This document shows, piece after piece, positions 5,790 through 25,173 of a DNA stretch of 53,416 nucleotides (position 1 is its first letter; each line of letters begins with the position of its first letter). Position numbers and translations under genes: made by a program. The notes under the pieces are model-generated. The model had not been told where the DNA came from, did not search any database, and was given only the letters and a program-made list of their open reading frames with translations. The DNA comes from an uncultured Alphaproteobacteria bacterium (GTDB lineage: Bacteria; Pseudomonadota; Alphaproteobacteria; RF32; CAG-239). Location: contig CALYAX010000012.1 in the NCBI GenBank assembly GCA_944393665.1, positions 1-53,416 of the forward strand, read 5' to 3'.

Positions 5790-6914
5790 GTGATTGAAAA
5801 ACTTAAGAACATCTTTTCTGCCTGCCGGCAATCTCCCGGCCGCGTTTTGTCGTTCTTAAAATCCAATCTCTGGGGAACTCTGGCATTTATCCTGGCTTTT
5901 CTGCTCGGCCTGTTTTTTATCAATCTGACCATGAGCCGCACCTATGCCGTCAAACAGCTTAAATCTGCTTTACTCAACCTGGAAAGCTATCTCAACGAAT
6001 TCAACCTTGACTTAGCTTATGACAATTATTCAACCAGCTCAATTTATACCCAGCCGCTGATTCGCTTTACGAATTTTGAACTTTACCGCCCCGGAAAATG
6101 GGCGCTTAAAATTCCGGAACTGCGGATTCGCAATTCTGTTTGGAATGCCGGGCGTTTTTACCTTATTCTCGGCGATGAGCAGATTCTTTCTTTCGGCAAG
6201 GATGAAAATATCACCATTACCGCTGATAATGCCGACCTTCAGATCGCTGCCAATTCTGCCGGTAATCTGGAATTGCTTCTTGCCCAAATCAAAAACATCA
6301 ACGTTAAAAATTATTTCAAAATTCAAGAGCTTAATCTTGCCGGACGCCGTGTCGGAACGCATAATAACGGCGGCCTGGCCCTCTCGGTATTTGAAAATCA
6401 TCTTGAAGCTAAGAACATCACCCTGAACGGTTTGCTGAATTACCCTCTCAGTTCCGGCATCAGCCGTATTTATGCAAAGACAAACTTTGTCGGAGCCCTT
6501 AACCCCGAAGGATCATTCACCGCAGCCATGGAAAACTGGCTTCATCAGGGAGGCTACATCGGTATTCCCAACCTGGTTGTCAATTGGAGTCCCCTCCTTC
6601 TGGTTGGCCGCGGCGAAATAAACTTTAATGAAAGGCTGGAGCCGTCGCTCCATTTAATGACCTCGTCCAAAGGCCTGACCAAACTGATGGATGACTTGCA
6701 GGAACGTGATTTTCTGGAAAGAAAAGGTGTTTTTGTCGCCAAGATTCTGCTGGCAAACAAATCATTCAAACTGTCAGAAGAAGATCGTTATTCCAGTGTT
6801 ATTACGCCGCTTGATTTCAGCGACGGCAAAATTTCGGTTGAAAACATCACCGTCCGCGGTGCCCGGCAGACGCCGCGTTCGTCAACAACTCTCACACCGC
6901 TTAAACAGCCCTGA
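5790..6914 (+). CDS. DUF2125-like envelope protein
   Basis: A 374-residue protein of unknown role. It begins at a GTG, 2 bases after the plsC-like stop, with GGAGGA upstream. One membrane segment near residues 30-50 (LAFILAFLLGLFFINL) is followed by a long, probably periplasmic, beta-rich domain (repeats of L-x-I and N-L-V patterns). This matches the layout of DUF2125 proteins, which follow this type of operon in alphaproteobacteria. The family assignment is a recognition from pattern and context rather than from a catalytic motif. The 3' end overlaps the convergent rsmD by 14 bases. Confidence 0.7.
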   Translation: MIEKLKNIFSACRQSPGRVLSFLKSNLWGTLAFILAFLLGLFFINLTMSRTYAVKQLKSALLNLESYLNEFNLDLAYDNYSTSSIYTQPLIRFTNFELYRPGKWALKIPELRIRNSVWNAGRFYLILGDEQILSFGKDENITITADNADLQIAANSAGNLELLLAQIKNINVKNYFKIQELNLAGRRVGTHNNGGLALSVFENHLEAKNITLNGLLNYPLSSGISRIYAKTNFVGALNPEGSFTAAMENWLHQGGYIGIPNLVVNWSPLLLVGRGEINFNERLEPSLHLMTSSKGLTKLMDDLQERDFLERKGVFVAKILLANKSFKLSEEDRYSSVITPLDFSDGKISVENITVRGARQTPRSSTTLTPLKQP

Positions 6915-13583: not shown

Positions 13584-14324
13584 TTATTTTCTCCATTCGA
13601 GATTCTTATGATCTCCGAAACGGAAAAAATTATACTTTGTTTTAAAGTAACAGCCGTAAGCGCTGTTTACTTCTGTCAGGTTAATGTCTTTTTCTTCGAC
13701 ATTAACCAAAATTTTGCCGTTGTCAGCAAGACAAAGCATAAATTTCTTTGCCTTTTTCCGGCTAAGGGTTTCAACAACCAGGGCACCGGTATTTTCCAAC
13801 GTACTCCCCTTATAATTAATGGTTCCTGTCGCCCAAAACGGATTTCCGACCAGTTTCAATTCTTTTCGCCAGGCAATCGAAGTGAATGCCCGCAAAATTT
13901 TAGAGTATTTCAACTGGTCTTCATCACCCAGCAAAGGAATAGCCCGCCAAGTTTCCAAATTCCCTGTCACCAAAAAAGTCATGGCACAGAGAATGCGATT
14001 CTCTTCGGCTGTGCGGTTGCATACGGCCCCTTTCGATTTGAAACATTTCAATCCTTCTTCCGGATCGATTTTTATTTGCAAACCGTCTACCTCATGGTCA
14101 TTGCCGTATTGGTAAACATTCGGCCCCTCTTCGACGGTAATTTGAATAACCGTGTTATTCTTAATCCGCGGATCAAACATACAGAGCTTTTGAAATTCTC
14201 TCCCCTCAATAAAGTTAAGGATTCTCTGTTCATTAGAAACTTTTTTAAAATTCCTTTTATTAAAAGTTTCATACTTGGCATCGACTTGATAGACTTTGCC
14301 TCTGGATGTTAATAATGTTGCCAT
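13584..14324 (-). CDS. uncharacterised protein
   Basis: A 246-residue soluble protein that I do not recognise. It begins MATLLTSRGKVYQVD and has alternating beta-like stretches (NTVIQITVEEGPNVYQYG; KFMLCLADNGKILVNVEE). Neither a signal peptide nor a membrane segment is seen. No Shine-Dalgarno is obvious before the ATG. It stands alone, with its own terminator downstream and about 180 bases before the next gene. It is the first of four small genes of unknown function here, all on the minus strand. Confidence 0.7.
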   Translation of the reverse strand: MATLLTSRGKVYQVDAKYETFNKRNFKKVSNEQRILNFIEGREFQKLCMFDPRIKNNTVIQITVEEGPNVYQYGNDHEVDGLQIKIDPEEGLKCFKSKGAVCNRTAEENRILCAMTFLVTGNLETWRAIPLLGDEDQLKYSKILRAFTSIAWRKELKLVGNPFWATGTINYKGSTLENTGALVVETLSRKKAKKFMLCLADNGKILVNVEEKDINLTEVNSAYGCYFKTKYNFFRFGDHKNLEWRK

Positions 14325-16558: not shown

Positions 16559-19243
<2,685 letters not shown>

Positions 19244-20100
19244 GGTTATTTCAGCTCCTAAGTAGCGTAGCCCCGGACGGGGCATTGTTAAAACAAAATC
19301 AACGGGGCAAAAGCCCCTTTGACGAACTAATTCGATGATAAGTTATACCAGCGATTACGATTCTACAAGAAAAATCTGCTTCCTGTCCTCAAAAACCGTG
19401 TTTTTCCCGCCCGGTAAAAATTTATATCCTGCGGCTTTCCGGCAGAAAAAAGCAAGCTGCCAGAGACCGGATGCCCCAAAACGGAACCCCCGTCTTTCCG
19501 ACTCGGATCCGCGCGAGTCGGAAGCCAAAAACAATTTTTAAGAGCACGATAGAGCCACAAACAACCGGATTTCCGGGATTCGGTTTTGACAAATTTTTCA
19601 TCTAAAAACGGCCTGTCAACGCCTAAATGAAAAAAATTTCTCCTTAATAACCCTTTTTTAACGCTCAAAATCGCGACTCGTAAAAATTGATTCTGCCCCG
19701 AAACAATTTTTGAGATTTCCCGATTCGCCAAATTCGCTTCCAGATTCCTTTTGAGTCCGGTCTGCCGTTTTTTTCGATTCGTTTGCATAAAAAAATGTTT
19801 TCCGCTGCGTTCTTCTTCTTTGCTGTTTTTATCTGCCGGCCGGACTCGCTGGCACCGCTCATTTTTGGCGATTTTGTAAATTTATGGACACAGAGTCAAA
19901 GGTTACAAATTTATTAAAATTCGTCAAAAACCCATGCTAAGCCTATCTTTTTATTGCCAATTCATGCGTTTTATGTTATATTCATAATTGACAAATCTTA
20001 TTATATTCCATTATCTACGCAATTATTTTCAACATCTGGAGTTTTTAGGTGACAGGGCTAGCATGCTTTTTACTTAAAAATCTATCGTTAACAGAAATAT
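19244..20100. other. long intergenic stretch without a convincing gene
   Basis: About 860 bases between ppdK and the hairpin-rich pair. Near ppdK are two GC hairpins (GGGGC / GCCCC at 19304-19317 and CCCCGGACGGGG at 19271-19282), probably in the ppdK leader. A perfect ten-base inverted repeat TTCCGACTCG / CGAGTCGGAA lies at 19496-19523. Frames of 60-140 codons exist on both strands, but they have no ribosome-binding sites and low-complexity products, and I do not call them. The last 200 bases are AT-rich and lead into the promoter at 19988. Confidence 0.5.
19988..20016 (+). promoter_or_regulatory. possible promoter ahead of the lipoprotein gene
   Basis: TTGACA at 19988-19993, 17-base spacer, TTATCT at 20011-20016. 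The -35 is perfect and the -10 is weak. It lies 175 bases upstream of the ATG, leaving room for a structured leader. Confidence 0.4.
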
Positions 20101-20118: not shown

Positions 20119-20146
20119 ACTTCGCCATTAATTATTATCGCGAAGT
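20119..20146 (+). other. leader hairpin of the lipoprotein gene
   Basis: Perfect seven-base inverted repeat ACTTCGC (20119-20125) / GCGAAGT (20140-20146) with a 14-base AT-rich loop, 44 bases upstream of the start codon. No T-run follows, so it is not a simple terminator. It is the first of the series of stem-loops that continues through the coding region. Confidence 0.55.
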
Positions 20147-20190
20147 CCGGCAATGAAAAAAAAATAATAACAATAAAAAAAACAAAAATC

Positions 20191-22479
20191 ATGGAAAAAT
20201 CTTTTTCAAGCATTCTTATGCTTTGCTGGATGGTCATGGCCTCAGCATTATTATTATCTTTGTCCTCTTGTTCCAAGGATGAAGAAATCTTCGGTGGTGA
20301 TCCGCAGTGGAACGGCGGCAATGGTGACACCACCACCATTATAACCACAGACTCTCTGTGGTTTGAGAAGAACATGATTGATGCAGAACGCATCAATTGT
20401 GGCCTTGTTCAACTGGGAGAAGCTCAGGCTTCCCTGGAAGACGAGGAGTTAACCCTCACCTTCCACGGTGAGATGTCAGCCAAATTTAAGTTCACCTATC
20501 GGTGGGCAGACAAAGAGGCTGACACCGTAAGAACCGTTAAATTCAATTCCGATAATATCGGAAAATTTAACGGACTGCTGTCTATCAAGGTAGACAGTGA
20601 TTCCCTTCCCCACTTGTCCGAACGGACTTATATGTGGGAGAAAGGCGCCTTCAACGTGGAAGGAACCCTTCTGCCGACCTCATTCGTGAATAAGACCGAT
20701 GTCCTCACTTATGTGGATGGTCATCGTGTTTTTTCACACGAAGATGGAACGCTGTGCGGTGTGGATGTTGTTGAAGCAACACTAAAGTTCAGAAATCTGA
20801 CTTTAGTGGAAGGTTCTGAAACAACCTACCGCGCAGAAAAGGTAATTACCGTTACCTTTTCGGAGGGAGGAGAGAGAGAATATATCCTCTCCGATGGTTT
20901 AATCATCACGTCTGAAAAAGACGAGGTGGTTTATACCGTCGAGAACATCGTTGAGAACGAGAAAGATCAAATTTCCTTCGAGGTGGTTGAAAAACACACC
21001 ATCGACACGGAAAAAGACATTCGCGTTCCGATGTCGTTCTTCCGGGACACCAAAATTGCCGCTGGCAAAAAGGTGAGCCGGGAAGAGGAATCAAAAAATA
21101 TTTCTCTGAACGCCAGTGTCCCTGGGAACTGGACTTACGTAAGTAAGTTCACCCAAGGTACTATCAGCGGCCAGGTAATGGAACAGGTTACGACCTATTC
21201 CTTCCAGGTTGCCAGTGGTATCTTTGAGACATTGGTAACTCTGACCACTGTACGCAACGTAACAGTTGAGTACAAAGGTCAGACTTTGGAAGTAAACCTT
21301 TCAGACCCGACCACCAATATGGTCAGTCTGGAAGAAACATCTTCCAAAGAAGAGAAATATTACAATATTTTCTCGTTCGAAACCGTATTTTGCGCTGCTT
21401 TCAACGGAGTGAACAGCAACATTACCACTGTTCAGGAAATTGAAATCAGCGTGAAAAAACAAGATACCGTTACTGGAATCTCATTTTTAAGTGACGAATT
21501 CCAGAAACGGGGTACGGAATTATTCAGCCTGATTAATTACCAGGTAGAATATACCGTATCGGCTCCTGCCAACGCAAGTTGCGAATTGAACCGAAATCTG
21601 AAAATTTCAGACAACGGTAAGATTTCAACGACCGTTGACGCTAACAGCCTTGAAGGAGGTAAAACGAACACCGTGAAAGTATCTGACGTTAAGTCGGACA
21701 CCACCAGCGGTGAACGGACCACGACCACCTATACCGCTACTTTCGGCGGCAAGGCTGTAGAGGTTAAAGTATCCGTGGACAGTAAAATGTCCTGGAGAGG
21801 CAACGCATTGAAAGATGCAACGCCATCTTTAATCTCCGCTGAGGCTAAGGAAACCTCTGCTAAAATGGAGGGTGCTTATATGGTTAAAACCTACGACTTG
21901 ATCACCATGTGGTCAGTTGGCGGCGAGACCTTTGAGCACGTCCAAACTGCAGAGGTAAGACATATAGCTCTTGACCCCACGTTCGAAGGATATACCATTG
22001 AACGGGCAGACGTAACCTTGGCTTATACCAAGAGTGGTCGTCTACCGGGACAGGGGATCACCTTCATGTGTGGGGTAGCTAAAGAAATCGGCGGAAACGG
22101 CAACAAATACTTTGCAATCAACGTTGCAAAGTACAATGAAGCTTATAACGGAGACGTTAAAGCTGCATTGGCTGCCGAAGGCGTAATGCAAGTTTGGGAC
22201 AATGTAAATCTGAGCAATTTAACCAATTATTGCTCGGTTATTTACACGTTGGCCAATACCAACGCCTTTGAACCCGCCGATATGGCTGGAGCAAACGGGA
22301 CGAATTTCGCTGATTGGAAACAATCAGGAAATTCTTGGGATTATCTTTCTTTAATCGATGGTCACGTTCACGGTTTTTCACCGGTAACTGGTACCATTGA
22401 AAGGTATTCCAACCCGTTAATCGAGTCAGTAGTAAAAGTAAACGGAGTATTCTCTCACGGGAATATTGCCGTTTTTTAA
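20191..22479 (+). CDS. surface-lipoprotein-like protein of Bacteroidota type, hairpin-tiled coding sequence
   Basis: A 762-residue predicted lipoprotein of no recognised family. The type II signal peptide ends in lipobox LSSC, giving a mature start CSKDEE. A lysine then acidic residues directly after the lipid-bearing cysteine match the Bacteroidota lipoprotein export signal that sends proteins to the cell surface. The rest is beta-rich and threonine-rich (DTTTIITTD; TTTTYTATFGG), suggesting Ig-like or beta-sandwich domains. The leader is A-rich with no Shine-Dalgarno, as in Bacteroidota and unlike the genes around. The coding DNA is filled with inverted repeats (separate entry), and the last codons form its own terminator. 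Transfer from Bacteroidota is inferred. A joined contig is the alternative. Confidence 0.82.
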   Translation: MEKSFSSILMLCWMVMASALLLSLSSCSKDEEIFGGDPQWNGGNGDTTTIITTDSLWFEKNMIDAERINCGLVQLGEAQASLEDEELTLTFHGEMSAKFKFTYRWADKEADTVRTVKFNSDNIGKFNGLLSIKVDSDSLPHLSERTYMWEKGAFNVEGTLLPTSFVNKTDVLTYVDGHRVFSHEDGTLCGVDVVEATLKFRNLTLVEGSETTYRAEKVITVTFSEGGEREYILSDGLIITSEKDEVVYTVENIVENEKDQISFEVVEKHTIDTEKDIRVPMSFFRDTKIAAGKKVSREEESKNISLNASVPGNWTYVSKFTQGTISGQVMEQVTTYSFQVASGIFETLVTLTTVRNVTVEYKGQTLEVNLSDPTTNMVSLEETSSKEEKYYNIFSFETVFCAAFNGVNSNITTVQEIEISVKKQDTVTGISFLSDEFQKRGTELFSLINYQVEYTVSAPANASCELNRNLKISDNGKISTTVDANSLEGGKTNTVKVSDVKSDTTSGERTTTTYTATFGGKAVEVKVSVDSKMSWRGNALKDATPSLISAEAKETSAKMEGAYMVKTYDLITMWSVGGETFEHVQTAEVRHIALDPTFEGYTIERADVTLAYTKSGRLPGQGITFMCGVAKEIGGNGNKYFAINVAKYNEAYNGDVKAALAAEGVMQVWDNVNLSNLTNYCSVIYTLANTNAFEPADMAGANGTNFADWKQSGNSWDYLSLIDGHVHGFSPVTGTIERYSNPLIESVVKVNGVFSHGNIAVF
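22440..22477 (+). terminator. terminator formed by the last codons of the lipoprotein gene
   Basis: AAACGG (22440-22445) pairs with CCGTTT (22469-22474), and inside it TATTC (22448-22452) pairs with GAATA (22461-22465). Six T follow the CCG, and the stop codon TAA (22477-22479) begins in that T-run. The whole stem is coding sequence. Confidence 0.75.
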
Positions 22480-22507
22480 CGATTTTTTTATTATAAAGTT
22501 AAACCCT

Positions 22508-22549
22508 GCTCCTGTGTGTCAAAAAATATTATGAACAGCACACAGGAGC
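22508..22549 (+). other. 11-bp leader hairpin of the outer-membrane-protein-like gene
   Basis: Perfect inverted repeat GCTCCTGTGTG (22508-22518) / CACACAGGAGC (22539-22549) around a 20-base AT-rich loop, 17 bases before the ATG at 22567. There is no T-run after it. The right arm contains AGGAG, the only Shine-Dalgarno-like element nearby, so the stem would hide it. Confidence 0.7.
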
Positions 22550-22566
22550 CCCTAATAACCCAGTAT

Positions 22567-23292
22567 ATGAAAACAAGAAATATAGCGGCTACTATCTTGA
22601 TGGTCGTGCTTGCCATCGCCGCTCAAAGCGCACAAGCACAGAATAGTCTGTCTGACTTCCTGTCTGCAACGACAGTGTCAGACAGCGCAAAAACGGCTTC
22701 CGCCGTTGTCGATACTACTCACCAGAGTAGTACCGTCGAAGAGACCAATCCGGTCATCTTCGACGGCCAGTTCTACGGCTATGCTTCGGCATCTGCCGTA
22801 GTAACCGACGACGGTGTCGGTGGCGAAGCCAGATTTGGCTTAGCCAAAAACCGGTGGGCATTTTTCGCTTTCGGGCGATATGTCCAGGACCGTTCAGGTC
22901 TCGGTATCGGGATCCGCCGGGACCTTGTTGGTAAGAGCGAAAACCGTTTCTTTCTCTCCGGAGAAATAATGGTTGGAGCCCTCCAGCAAAATGCAGGGAT
23001 CCGGAGTGATATAACCGTGAAAGACCTCGAAGGAGGCTTATATCACGGATATATCACCAAAAAATTGAGACCCCAGCTCGAAGCTGGTCTCAATCTCCAA
23101 ATCCGCCTCGGCAACAAGACGTTCTTGAACGTCTTCGGGGGAGGGATTTGGAGGTGCTGCGACGGTGACAAGCTGTCGCTGAACTCCGAAGTCAACTTCC
23201 CTAACGCGGAAGTTATTCGGGGGGAGATGAACTCCTTTAAGAAGGAGTTTGGATTCAAATGCGGTCTCGGCATTGAATTCAGAATTTTTTAG
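22567..23292 (+). CDS. outer-membrane-protein-like secreted protein, hairpin-tiled coding sequence
   Basis: A 241-residue protein with signal peptide (MKTRNIAATILMVVLAIAAQ, cleavage near AQAQ). A threonine/serine-rich segment follows, then a beta-rich domain with alternating patterns and C-terminal IEFRIF, an aromatic ending typical of outer-membrane barrels. Unusual internal residues are adjacent cysteines (WRCCDGD). ATG 22567 is chosen because it begins the signal peptide; an in-frame ATG 12 codons earlier lies in the leader hairpin. It has its own terminator. The DNA is even denser in inverted repeats than the preceding gene. The two may form a functional pair (surface lipoprotein plus barrel); that is inference from adjacency and shared DNA structure. 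Confidence 0.78.
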   Translation: MKTRNIAATILMVVLAIAAQSAQAQNSLSDFLSATTVSDSAKTASAVVDTTHQSSTVEETNPVIFDGQFYGYASASAVVTDDGVGGEARFGLAKNRWAFFAFGRYVQDRSGLGIGIRRDLVGKSENRFFLSGEIMVGALQQNAGIRSDITVKDLEGGLYHGYITKKLRPQLEAGLNLQIRLGNKTFLNVFGGGIWRCCDGDKLSLNSEVNFPNAEVIRGEMNSFKKEFGFKCGLGIEFRIF

Positions 23293-23317
23293 AGACAATT
23301 ATTAAACACAAATATAG

Positions 23318-23352
23318 ACAGCCGCATAGCAATATGCGGCTGTTGCCTTTTA
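23318..23352 (+). terminator. intrinsic terminator after the outer-membrane-protein-like gene
   Basis: Perfect 11-base stem ACAGCCGCATA / TATGCGGCTGT (23318-23328 with 23333-23343) with a GCAA tetraloop, followed by TGCCTTTTAA. Confidence 0.85.
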
Positions 23353-23550: not shown

Positions 23551-23583
23551 ATGCTGACTTAATTTTATAATGAGGTGGTTTTC

Positions 23584-24327
23584 ATGAAATGTTTTGTTCA
23601 ACTTGCTTTTGCCTGCGGCCTGGTTCTGTCTTCCGCCGCTTTTGCCCAGGCACCGGATTCCAACGGCTCCGCCGCGCCTGCCGCTTCGGCAGAAACCCCG
23701 GCTTGGAAACCCAACCCCGCCCATAACAAAATTCTTGACCCCATCGCCCAAACCATCGGCCAGTCAGCCTTGCAAAACATCACCGACGCCGAGCAGGTTT
23801 TCTGCTACCAAATCACCACCAAACCGGACAACTATACCGGTTACACGCTCGATGGCATGGCTGTTGTCGGTTTTTGCGGCGTTATCAATCCTGAACTCAA
23901 AACCATGATTTCGTCCGAGCTGTTCATGAATCCCAACAACGTTTTGTTTGACGTGACCGAAGATTGCGTTATCCGCCCGCGGATTATGCTCCGTTTTGTC
24001 CGCGGTGTCGATTCGACCGACGTTTTGCTGTCTTCGCCCTGCCATGCCTTTGCCATTTTCTACGGCGGCCGGGTCAATGCTTTTAATGCCAAACCTGCCG
24101 CTCCGATTATCGACGCGCTGATTGATCCGCTGGTTAAGGGACGTATTGATTTTGCCTCCCCGGCGCTGTTTAACCAGCTGCTGCCCATCGGCGTGGCCCA
24201 GACTGACGAGCAAAAAGCCCTGCTCAATAAGAAAAACGAACCCATCCGCAACTGGGTCAAAACCCAGCAGGAAGAAGAAAAAAGCACCAAATCCAAAGGC
24301 TGGAACAATCTTAACCTCAATCTTTAG
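23584..24327 (+). CDS. uncharacterised secreted protein
   Basis: A 247-residue exported protein with signal peptide MKCFVQLAFACGLVLSSA and cleavage near AFAQA. The mature part has a proline/alanine-rich start, a compact domain around residues 45-200 containing four cysteines (VFCYQI, GFCGVI, EDCVIR, SSPCHAF) that could form two disulfides, and a lysine-rich tail. I do not recognise the family. ATG 23584 is favoured over a GTG three codons earlier because GAGGTGG stands five bases ahead of it. It lies 9 bases before pheA in the same direction, so it shares the promoter at 23522. Confidence 0.78.
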   Translation: MKCFVQLAFACGLVLSSAAFAQAPDSNGSAAPAASAETPAWKPNPAHNKILDPIAQTIGQSALQNITDAEQVFCYQITTKPDNYTGYTLDGMAVVGFCGVINPELKTMISSELFMNPNNVLFDVTEDCVIRPRIMLRFVRGVDSTDVLLSSPCHAFAIFYGGRVNAFNAKPAAPIIDALIDPLVKGRIDFASPALFNQLLPIGVAQTDEQKALLNKKNEPIRNWVKTQQEEEKSTKSKGWNNLNLNL

Positions 24328-24336
24328 AGAACCGAC

Positions 24337-25173
24337 ATGAAACTTAAAATCGCTTATCAGGGCGTGGCCGGCGCCTATTCCCATATTGCCAGCCAGACAG
24401 TTTATCCCGGAGCCGACTATCTGGCCTGTGCCAGTTTTGAAGAGGCCATGGCCGCCGTCACCGACAAAAAGGTCGATCTGGCAATGATTCCGGTTGAAAA
24501 CTCTAATGCCGGCCGGGTCAGCGATGTCCACTTCCTCCTCCCCTCCACCGGACTGCATATTGTCGGAGAATTTTTTCTGCGGATTGAACACCAGCTTCTG
24601 GGCCTGCCCGGAGCCAGACTTTCCGGCATCAAAACGGCTTCTTCCCACCCGCAGGCGCTCGCCCAGTGTTCAGAATTTCTCAAAAACCATCATATTCAGC
24701 CGGTTCAGCGGATTGATACCGCCCTTTCCTGCCAGGATGTCCTGCGGGATCAGGATCCTGCCAAAGCCGCTATTGCCTCGCGTCTGGCCGGAGAAATTTA
24801 CGGGTTGGAAATTCTGGCTCCCAATATCGAAAATGCCAGCAACAATACCACGCGTTTTTTGATTATGTCGCGTGACAGCCTGATCCCCGAATATGACGGC
24901 GGCAAATTTATTACCTCGTTTATTTTCAAGGCAAAAAATATCCCGGCGGCCTTATACAAAGCCCTCGGCGGTTTTGCGACCAACGGCATCAACCTGACCA
25001 AGCTGGAGAGCTACCTTCTGGAAGGCAAATTTATTTCAGCGCAGTTTTATGTCGAGGTTGAAGCCCATCCCGACCAGCACGCATTCCGCAACGCCTTTGA
25101 CGAACTGCGCTTTTTTGCCGATGAAGTTCATCTCCTCGGCTCTTATGCGGCCCACCCTTACCGCTATCTCTAA
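24337..25173 (+). CDS. pheA: prephenate dehydratase
   Basis: Converts prephenate to phenylpyruvate in phenylalanine synthesis. The 278-residue protein has the catalytic domain (IAYQGVAGAYSHIAS; MIPVENSNAGRV; the key NTTRF with active-site threonine and arginine) and a C-terminal ACT domain (GINLTKLESYLLEGKFISAQ) that binds phenylalanine for feedback control; the ESYL motif is intact. It is the monofunctional form, without a chorismate mutase domain. It follows the secreted unknown by 9 bases. Confidence 0.95.
   Translation: MKLKIAYQGVAGAYSHIASQTVYPGADYLACASFEEAMAAVTDKKVDLAMIPVENSNAGRVSDVHFLLPSTGLHIVGEFFLRIEHQLLGLPGARLSGIKTASSHPQALAQCSEFLKNHHIQPVQRIDTALSCQDVLRDQDPAKAAIASRLAGEIYGLEILAPNIENASNNTTRFLIMSRDSLIPEYDGGKFITSFIFKAKNIPAALYKALGGFATNGINLTKLESYLLEGKFISAQFYVEVEAHPDQHAFRNAFDELRFFADEVHLLGSYAAHPYRYL

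Follow-up and report, generated by a model that had tools for sequence, protein, structure and literature searches.

Two adjacent genes at positions 20119-23343, encoding a predicted lipoprotein (open reading frame 1, ORF1) and a predicted outer-membrane barrel (ORF2), have coding sequences tiled with short hairpins. They lie in the window, by which we mean the whole stretch of DNA analyzed, 53,416 nt long (contig CALYAX010000012.1 of assembly GCA_944393665.1, from an uncultured bacterium of the Alphaproteobacteria, lineage RF32; CAG-239, with a gene content suggestive of the gut), and this copy of the locus sits on a chromosomal contig. Selection very probably acts here at the RNA level, on the sense mRNA, a conclusion that we hold with high confidence. 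Our further reading, tentative and a little short of an even chance, is that selection keeps the body of the two-gene message folded shut, with its start regions open, across species of the genus; a bacterial mRNA organized in this manner would be unusual.

The initial annotation of this DNA, made from the letters alone, counted more than thirty perfect inverted repeats with arms of 7 bp or longer, and the count in 20119-23343 is indeed 32 (arms of at least 7, loops of 3-20), compared with 0-13 in equal-size stretches of the 53-kb window that lie outside this region. Across its own genome, 272 sampled 3.2-kb windows hold a mean of 5.2 inverted repeats (maximum 22), a mean slightly too low because 2 of the 16 sampled stretches are all N; the stretches with the highest counts, L023 and L025, are AT-rich there and display little or no energy signal. 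The repeats also exceed chance as the annotation had estimated, since the ORF1 and ORF2 frames contain 29 of them natively vs 4.8 ± 2.1 in 200 codon shuffles (maximum 13). The folding energies, which it had proposed to compare with neighbors and synonymous shuffles, place both genes far beyond either: codon-shuffle z-scores are -11.8 for ORF1 and -9.4 for ORF2, against 0.0 to -6.2 for 12 other ORFs of the window, and the excess folding per nt over codon shuffles reaches -0.080 and -0.125 kcal/mol, respectively. Because codon shuffles preserve both the protein sequence and the codon usage, yet lose the signal, neither of these explains the folding. Measured against dinucleotide shuffles, the + strand of the locus has a mean folding z of -4.6 (26 windows of 120 nt; 81% below -2) and the - strand -3.1, the remainder of the window averaging -0.3 to -0.7. 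The pairs responsible for the excess are short-range, with spans below 50 nt, and the density of perfect repeats (8.3 and 13.8 per kb in the two genes) compares with 0 to 3.1 in the RNA phage MS2. Dense structure and coding thus coexist, as first described, and the window returns no match to described RNA families at gathering scores.

The tiling has a finer layout than the one originally drawn, which ran from 20119 to 23343. A hairpin does stand at 20119-20146, separate from the tiling, and the coding excess starts only near 20331. Windows are weak over both start codons (-0.4 to -1.1 at 20151-20271; -0.5 at 22551), and also at several inner positions (21891, -1.2; 22011, -0.4; 22311, -1.8; 22371, -1.4; 22911, -1.3). 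The leader (20119-20146), intergenic (22508-22549) and terminator (23318-23343) hairpins are good ones, distinct from the coding tiling. Among the five hairpins singled out at the outset, those at 20534-20573, 21467-21510, 22733-22766 and 23095-23153 are listed by our analysis, and the fifth, 22040-22064, is poor (z +0.55); three of the named hairpins fold strongly (z -4.4, -4.3 and -6.4), the inner part of 23095-23153 (23105-23145) reaching only -1.5. The tetraloop letters GAAA at 22317, TTCG at 22785, CTTG at 23124 and GCAA at 23329 are present, and no GAGA occurs at 22051. The parts of the locus and its flanks are the following:

20119-20146, + strand: leader hairpin, 10-bp arms with one mismatch and an 8-nt loop (z -3.0).
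20155-20190, + strand: A-rich leader without a Shine-Dalgarno-like site, adjoining the ORF1 ATG, a weakly structured start region (by sequence and folding).
20191-22479, + strand: ORF1, predicted lipoprotein of 762 residues (lipobox Cys27, assigned by eye), coding body hairpin-tiled from ~20331.
22508-22549, + strand: intergenic hairpin, perfect 11-bp arms and an A-rich 20-nt loop (z -6.2).
22567-23292, + strand: ORF2, predicted exported 8-stranded outer-membrane barrel of 241 residues, coding body hairpin-tiled.
23318-23343, + strand: terminator-like hairpin, perfect 11-bp arms and a GCAA loop (z -6.3).
16559-19285, - strand: pyruvate phosphate dikinase (PPDK) gene, conserved left flank, unstructured (control).
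23575-24327, + strand: conserved exported-protein gene of 240-250 residues, right flank, unstructured (control).
24337-25173, + strand: prephenate dehydratase (PDT) gene, marker of the locus in relatives, unstructured (control).

Many species of the genus carry related lipoprotein/barrel pairs between PPDK and PDT. In profile searches of 35 genomes of the genus, 28 contain the lipoprotein family and 26 the barrel family; among 385 genomes drawn from the class, the lipoprotein family occurs in two, both of this genus. Judged from their sequences, the proteins of the pair evolve fast: ORF1 shares 23-26% identity with its blastp-detectable relatives in the species of set 1 (defined below) and family proteins often fall below 30%, as compared with 61-82% for the neighboring dehydratase where it is full length. 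Protein searches report at least 16 and at least 17 relatives of ORF1 and four of ORF2, homologues at 80-98% being known as protein sequences alone. Scans of genome contigs and of viral contigs returned no ORF1 relative, and neither did records of phages and plasmids, which leaves the early idea of an RNA-borne or single-stranded replicative stage without backing.

The folding excess was scored in 61 family genes. Set 1 comprises 31 genes from the PPDK-PDT interval, chosen by position and look (a lipoprotein beside a barrel) after the z-scores had been printed, a choice that may favor structured genes; lipoprotein genes truncated by contig ends were kept in it (G020, the first copy of G027, and G032). 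Set 2 comprises 30 genes, namely profile hits and their operon partners, listed after their scores, with the weak G001, G012 and second G006 genes retained. The L069 lipoprotein gene belongs to set 1 and was excluded from set 2, but it remained among the "other" rows of the relatives, and these rows enter the exported-protein and A-rich-leader comparisons given below. The mean excess of the 61 genes is -0.064 kcal/mol per nt and 53 of them lie below -0.035. The same signature, which the initial annotation had suggested seeking elsewhere, is rare outside the family: 21 of 629 other ORFs of the own genome (41% sampled) lie below -0.035 and 2 of 629 below -0.06, as do 9 of 207 neighboring ORFs in relatives for the -0.035 threshold. 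As a yardstick, the MS2 genes scored alike give -0.072, -0.076 and -0.083 kcal/mol per nt, and 33 E. coli genes average -0.009, with -0.005 for the coding part of ompA. Export as such does not bring the excess: 19 rows for adjacent exported barrels of a different type, in which at least one gene is entered twice, have a mean of +0.0007, and in the own genome the 112 other ORFs with a predicted signal peptide or lipobox are not more structured than the 417 without (p 0.26). Of note, a conserved exported barrel gene of ~200 residues, recognized by its ARDGFY motif, adjoins the pair in L043, L044, L046, L050, L052 and others, and has no excess, so that nature provides a control.

The mismatches within stems, the strand and the synonymous sites, together with the energy excess, argue for selection on RNA and not on DNA, as had been surmised from the window alone. 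In stems of the 3+X+3 type, G-U mismatches occur at 2.19 times their expected number, A-C at 1.30 and other mismatches at 1.27. The resulting G-U to A-C ratio is 1.68 over the 61 genes (z 4.97), with 1.66 and 1.54 in the two sets, vs 1.01 in 192 neighbors. Set 1 is rich in A and C on its sense strand, with an expected ratio of 0.81, so a simple mutational push to G and T on the coding strand would be no easy explanation of the G-U excess. The folding excess of the sense strand is larger than that of the antisense strand in 43 of the 61 genes (23/31 in set 1, p 0.0003; 20/30 in set 2, p 0.0013), and the MS2 genes lean the same way. Between homologues, four-fold degenerate sites have changed less often when predicted to be paired (0.238) than when unpaired (0.348), in the same direction in all 15 gene pairs, drawn from 9 genome pairs, vs 0.480 and 0.446 in control genes, where the two-fold effect is reversed. 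Sorted by fold, the changed fraction is 0.311 for sites paired in the sense strand only, 0.388 in the antisense strand only, 0.336 in neither and 0.221 in both. Stem arms likewise differ less than random arms (2.01 vs 2.76 differences) and are more often unchanged (34% vs 17%).

The start regions stand apart from the tiled body. Family genes have no excess over their first 60 nt and the full excess from ~150 nt. The lipoprotein genes possess A-rich leaders, in which pairing at positions -30 to -1 is 0.44 vs 0.63-0.73 in the body. A rule assigned starts to 29 of 33 lipoprotein genes and to 20 of 28 barrel genes; Shine-Dalgarno-like sites are found in 0/29 and 3/20 of them, respectively, as compared with 185/297 host genes. 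Windows open at internal ATGs make up 3.9%, vs 9.7% in shuffles. According to the abstract of PMC3121790, local unfolding is enough for a start when a Shine-Dalgarno site is missing, and internal AUGs are usually structured. By analogy, ribosomes would locate the start as an unpaired A-rich window in an otherwise closed RNA, hairpins of less than 50-nt span would reform behind each ribosome, and closure would reduce spurious internal ribosome entry as well as shield the RNA between ribosomes. Any one hairpin would be replaceable, overall closure being what is conserved, and stems would turn over because selection keeps this closure and not single hairpins. Such a start-site and shielding role of the closed body is possible, though we would not call it probable; several tests of the start-site part were negative, and we offer the function as a proposal of low confidence.

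A number of results weigh against the reading of a body held shut around open starts. Eight of the 61 family genes are weak, including the G001 pair, the G012 pair, the second G006 copy and the G023 barrel. The G-U preference is weaker or not significant at other stem sizes (1.35 in set 1 at 3+4, z 1.3; 1.66 in both sets at 4+4, z 1.8), a first and stricter scan of mismatched stems gave 31 G-U vs 25 A-C, and the window's own pair gives 9:2 at 3+3, 1:1 at 4+3 and 0:1 at 4+4. Sites paired in the sense strand only differ from those paired in the antisense strand only at p 0.11 per direction, the p of 0.02 being obtained by pooling both directions of the same pairs. Compensatory changes between homologues, named at the outset as a check, did not turn up: when 276 ungapped stems with arms of at least 7 were carried over to homologues, in both directions of 18 gene pairs, 64 came through unchanged, 212 were broken, and compensation of an entire stem occurred in 0, which means that whole stems do not covary. 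Taken unconditionally, homologous stem pairs decay to G-U and A-C alike (148:153; 1109:1203). Stems that are mostly kept do favor G-U over A-C, by 44:22 at the strictest of the score-7 filters (controls 12:13) and by 61:35 and 28:11 at two further filters, another control giving 38:29; in these projections, as in the stem-arm comparisons and the four-fold rates of the control genes, homologue pairs are counted twice, once per direction, and species are shared, so that p-values are too small. We read this as selection that targets closure, hairpins coming and going so that only the kept stems tolerate G-U. On the start side, internal ATGs are closed only slightly more than positions in general, for which open windows go from 13.5% to 6.2%, and open A-rich 5-mers are not reduced in family genes. 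The 112 host genes without Shine-Dalgarno-like sites are not more structured than the 185 with them (p 0.51), the excess of genes with A-rich leaders outside the family is not significant (p 0.14), and 24 genes of a Bacteroides plasmid average only -0.009. Missing Shine-Dalgarno sites as a general cause of folding are therefore supported neither by the host genome, nor by the A-rich leaders outside the family, nor by the Bacteroides plasmid.

Among the other explanations, the one that survives best, though unlikely, is a form of the mRNA protection suggested early on, in which the hairpins slow ribonucleases and thereby give a long-lived mRNA to a sparsely translated surface operon. Structured coding sequences are reported to extend functional half-life in a mammalian system (PMC6883848). 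In the family, unpaired runs of at least 8 nt drop from 5.44 to 4.23 per kb, and the low codon adaptation of the pair suggests that ribosomes may be sparse. However, open sites of the RNWUU pattern, which is RNase E-like, are unchanged (3.21 vs 3.18 per kb), open AU-rich 5-mers drop only from 27.4 to 26.1, and the mRNA of E. coli ompA is stable with a coding part of just -0.005. Rather improbable is a second possibility, that the tiling conceals C-rich single-stranded RNA from Rho and spares a poorly translated operon early termination. Open G-free 5-mers rich in C or pyrimidines do drop from 16.62 to 11.85 per kb, beyond what the energy change predicts (residual z -5.3), but a similar residual (z -2.9) is seen in MS2, a phage whose RNA the host RNA polymerase does not synthesize, so it may be common to folded RNA in general.

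That the structure sets the pace of translation during secretion, an idea raised in the initial annotation, is very unlikely. Hairpins would here slow ribosomes once the signal peptide has emerged, which would agree with an excess beginning after ~50 codons in genes whose two products are both predicted to be exported, and with the reported anticorrelation of ORF structure and translation efficiency in E. coli (rho -0.76; PMC5318159). The adjacent exported barrels of another type nevertheless average +0.0007 over their 19 rows, and the 112 own-genome ORFs with a signal peptide or lipobox do not differ upward from the 417 others (p 0.26). Fainter still is the chance that template switching during DNA replication makes and repairs the palindromes, the RNA structure being a mutational by-product, an idea also voiced early on. 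It was suspected on account of the turnover of stems and of the equal G-U and A-C numbers in the unconditional projections. The literature describes this mechanism for RNA hairpins (PMC8794818), the stems of the family are mostly perfect, and in changed segments reverse-complement copies exceed reversed or complemented controls; direct copies are, however, equally common. Changes confined to one arm occur in 18 of the 125 stems with at least 3 differences, or 14%, below the 19% of random arm pairs, and template switching predicts neither G-U above A-C, nor slower paired sites, nor confinement to one operon. The chance that the protein sequence, the codon usage or the base composition produces the signal as an artefact is practically negligible: the proteins are predicted to be β-rich and some relatives contain internal or tandem duplications, but codon shuffles abolish the signal, refuting such an artefact for 53 of the 61 genes and leaving it possible for the weak ones.

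Structural knowledge on the two proteins comes from prediction. ORF1 matches no Pfam domain at cut-off, and the structure model of this lipoprotein (pLDDT 37) was not used. The ORF2 model (pLDDT 71.5) has strands at residues 69-240, and Foldseek reports hits with NspA, with OmpA and with the barrel of OprF (4rlc; TM of 0.84 relative to the length of the target), the matches sharing just 8-10% identity. ORF2 is likened to the OmpA/OprF/NspA-type barrels by its predicted eight strands, and differs from them in the low identity of these matches and in having no Pfam match. It is possible that ORF2 starts at 22531 instead of 22567: the A-rich loop of the intergenic hairpin (22519-22538) holds an in-frame ATG at 22531, and the homologous proteins P0003 and P0005 begin at this point, with MNSTQE. 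Codon adaptation is low, ORF1 ranking at the 19th and ORF2 at the 3rd percentile of 523 ORFs, and high expression was rejected on this ground as a reason for the folding.

Several further genes were observed beside the pair or elsewhere in the genome. The lipoprotein gene is tandemly duplicated in G014 and G027 (L027:6607-14371; L028) and P0007 is internally duplicated, duplications that suggest recombination within the family. In the window, a gene of unknown function (13584-14324, - strand, 246 residues) is also structured, with a codon-shuffle z of -6.2. Divergent relatives of it beside the same locus give -8.1 (L027:2008-2787) and -4.2 (L030:16187-16972), and those in L048 and L049 only -0.4 and -0.1. 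Three own-genome ORFs carry an excess as well: a predicted lipoprotein gene with an ORF1-like A-rich leader (L104:2684-3652, -0.05 per nt), and two short mechanical ORFs (L016:8072-8377, -0.082; L101:18851-19222, -0.064). Lastly, short tandem repeats adjoin the pair at L075:833-1150 and 6088-6750 and at L079:5437-5838, where the mechanical ORFs translate into repetitive peptides (QNDRKRNT... and SCHPEPL...).

A word search of open-licence PubMed Central found no publication on such an operon among the matches listed. Selection on coding-sequence folding in bacteria is usually weak and acts gene by gene; here, in a single operon, it is as strong as in an RNA phage. The trait recurs over many species with proteins diverged past easy recognition, and is absent from neighboring genes and other exported barrels. 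The operon may thus serve as a natural test bed for the effects of coding structure on the choice of starts, on decay and on the traffic of ribosomes, codon-shuffled versions being ready controls, and its synonymous-site constraint is large enough to mislead studies of codon usage and dN/dS in fast-evolving surface proteins.

Compared with known systems, the operon resembles several in part. In a survey of 73 species, structural selection is reported for 2-3% of ORFs, without correlation between homologues (PMC6544989); as in its extreme cases, the order of synonymous codons here yields more structure than same-codon shuffles, and, at variance with what the survey reports, this structure is common to a family across a genus. 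An excess of stem-loops over shuffles is also reported for 40 bacterial genomes (PMC1590033). Structured cis-regulatory or noncoding RNA families differ from the operon, which matches no described family and does not keep the same stems by covariation. The hairpins attributed to template switching (PMC8794818) are alike in their near-perfect stems, but the operon has no one-arm excess, and its paired sites show constraint and a preference for G-U. With starts independent of a Shine-Dalgarno site (PMC3121790) the family shares the missing site, the open start window and the structured internal AUGs; it differs in that host genes without such sites have no excess, and in the tiling of whole genes, which the abstract of that study does not describe. 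The closest likeness is to the genome-scale ordered structure of RNA viruses, computed here for MS2: an excess of the same size per nt, dependent on order and spread over the whole coding length, is found in this operon, and so is the preference for the strand of the functional RNA, although it is weak in the window's own pair. The operon differs from RNA viruses by its place on a bacterial chromosome and its denser perfect repeats, no RNA replication being known or found. We give an even chance to the view that it is a chromosomal operon with a genus-wide ordered RNA architecture of a kind so far tied to RNA viruses, in which the single hairpins are replaceable and the overall closure is inherited.

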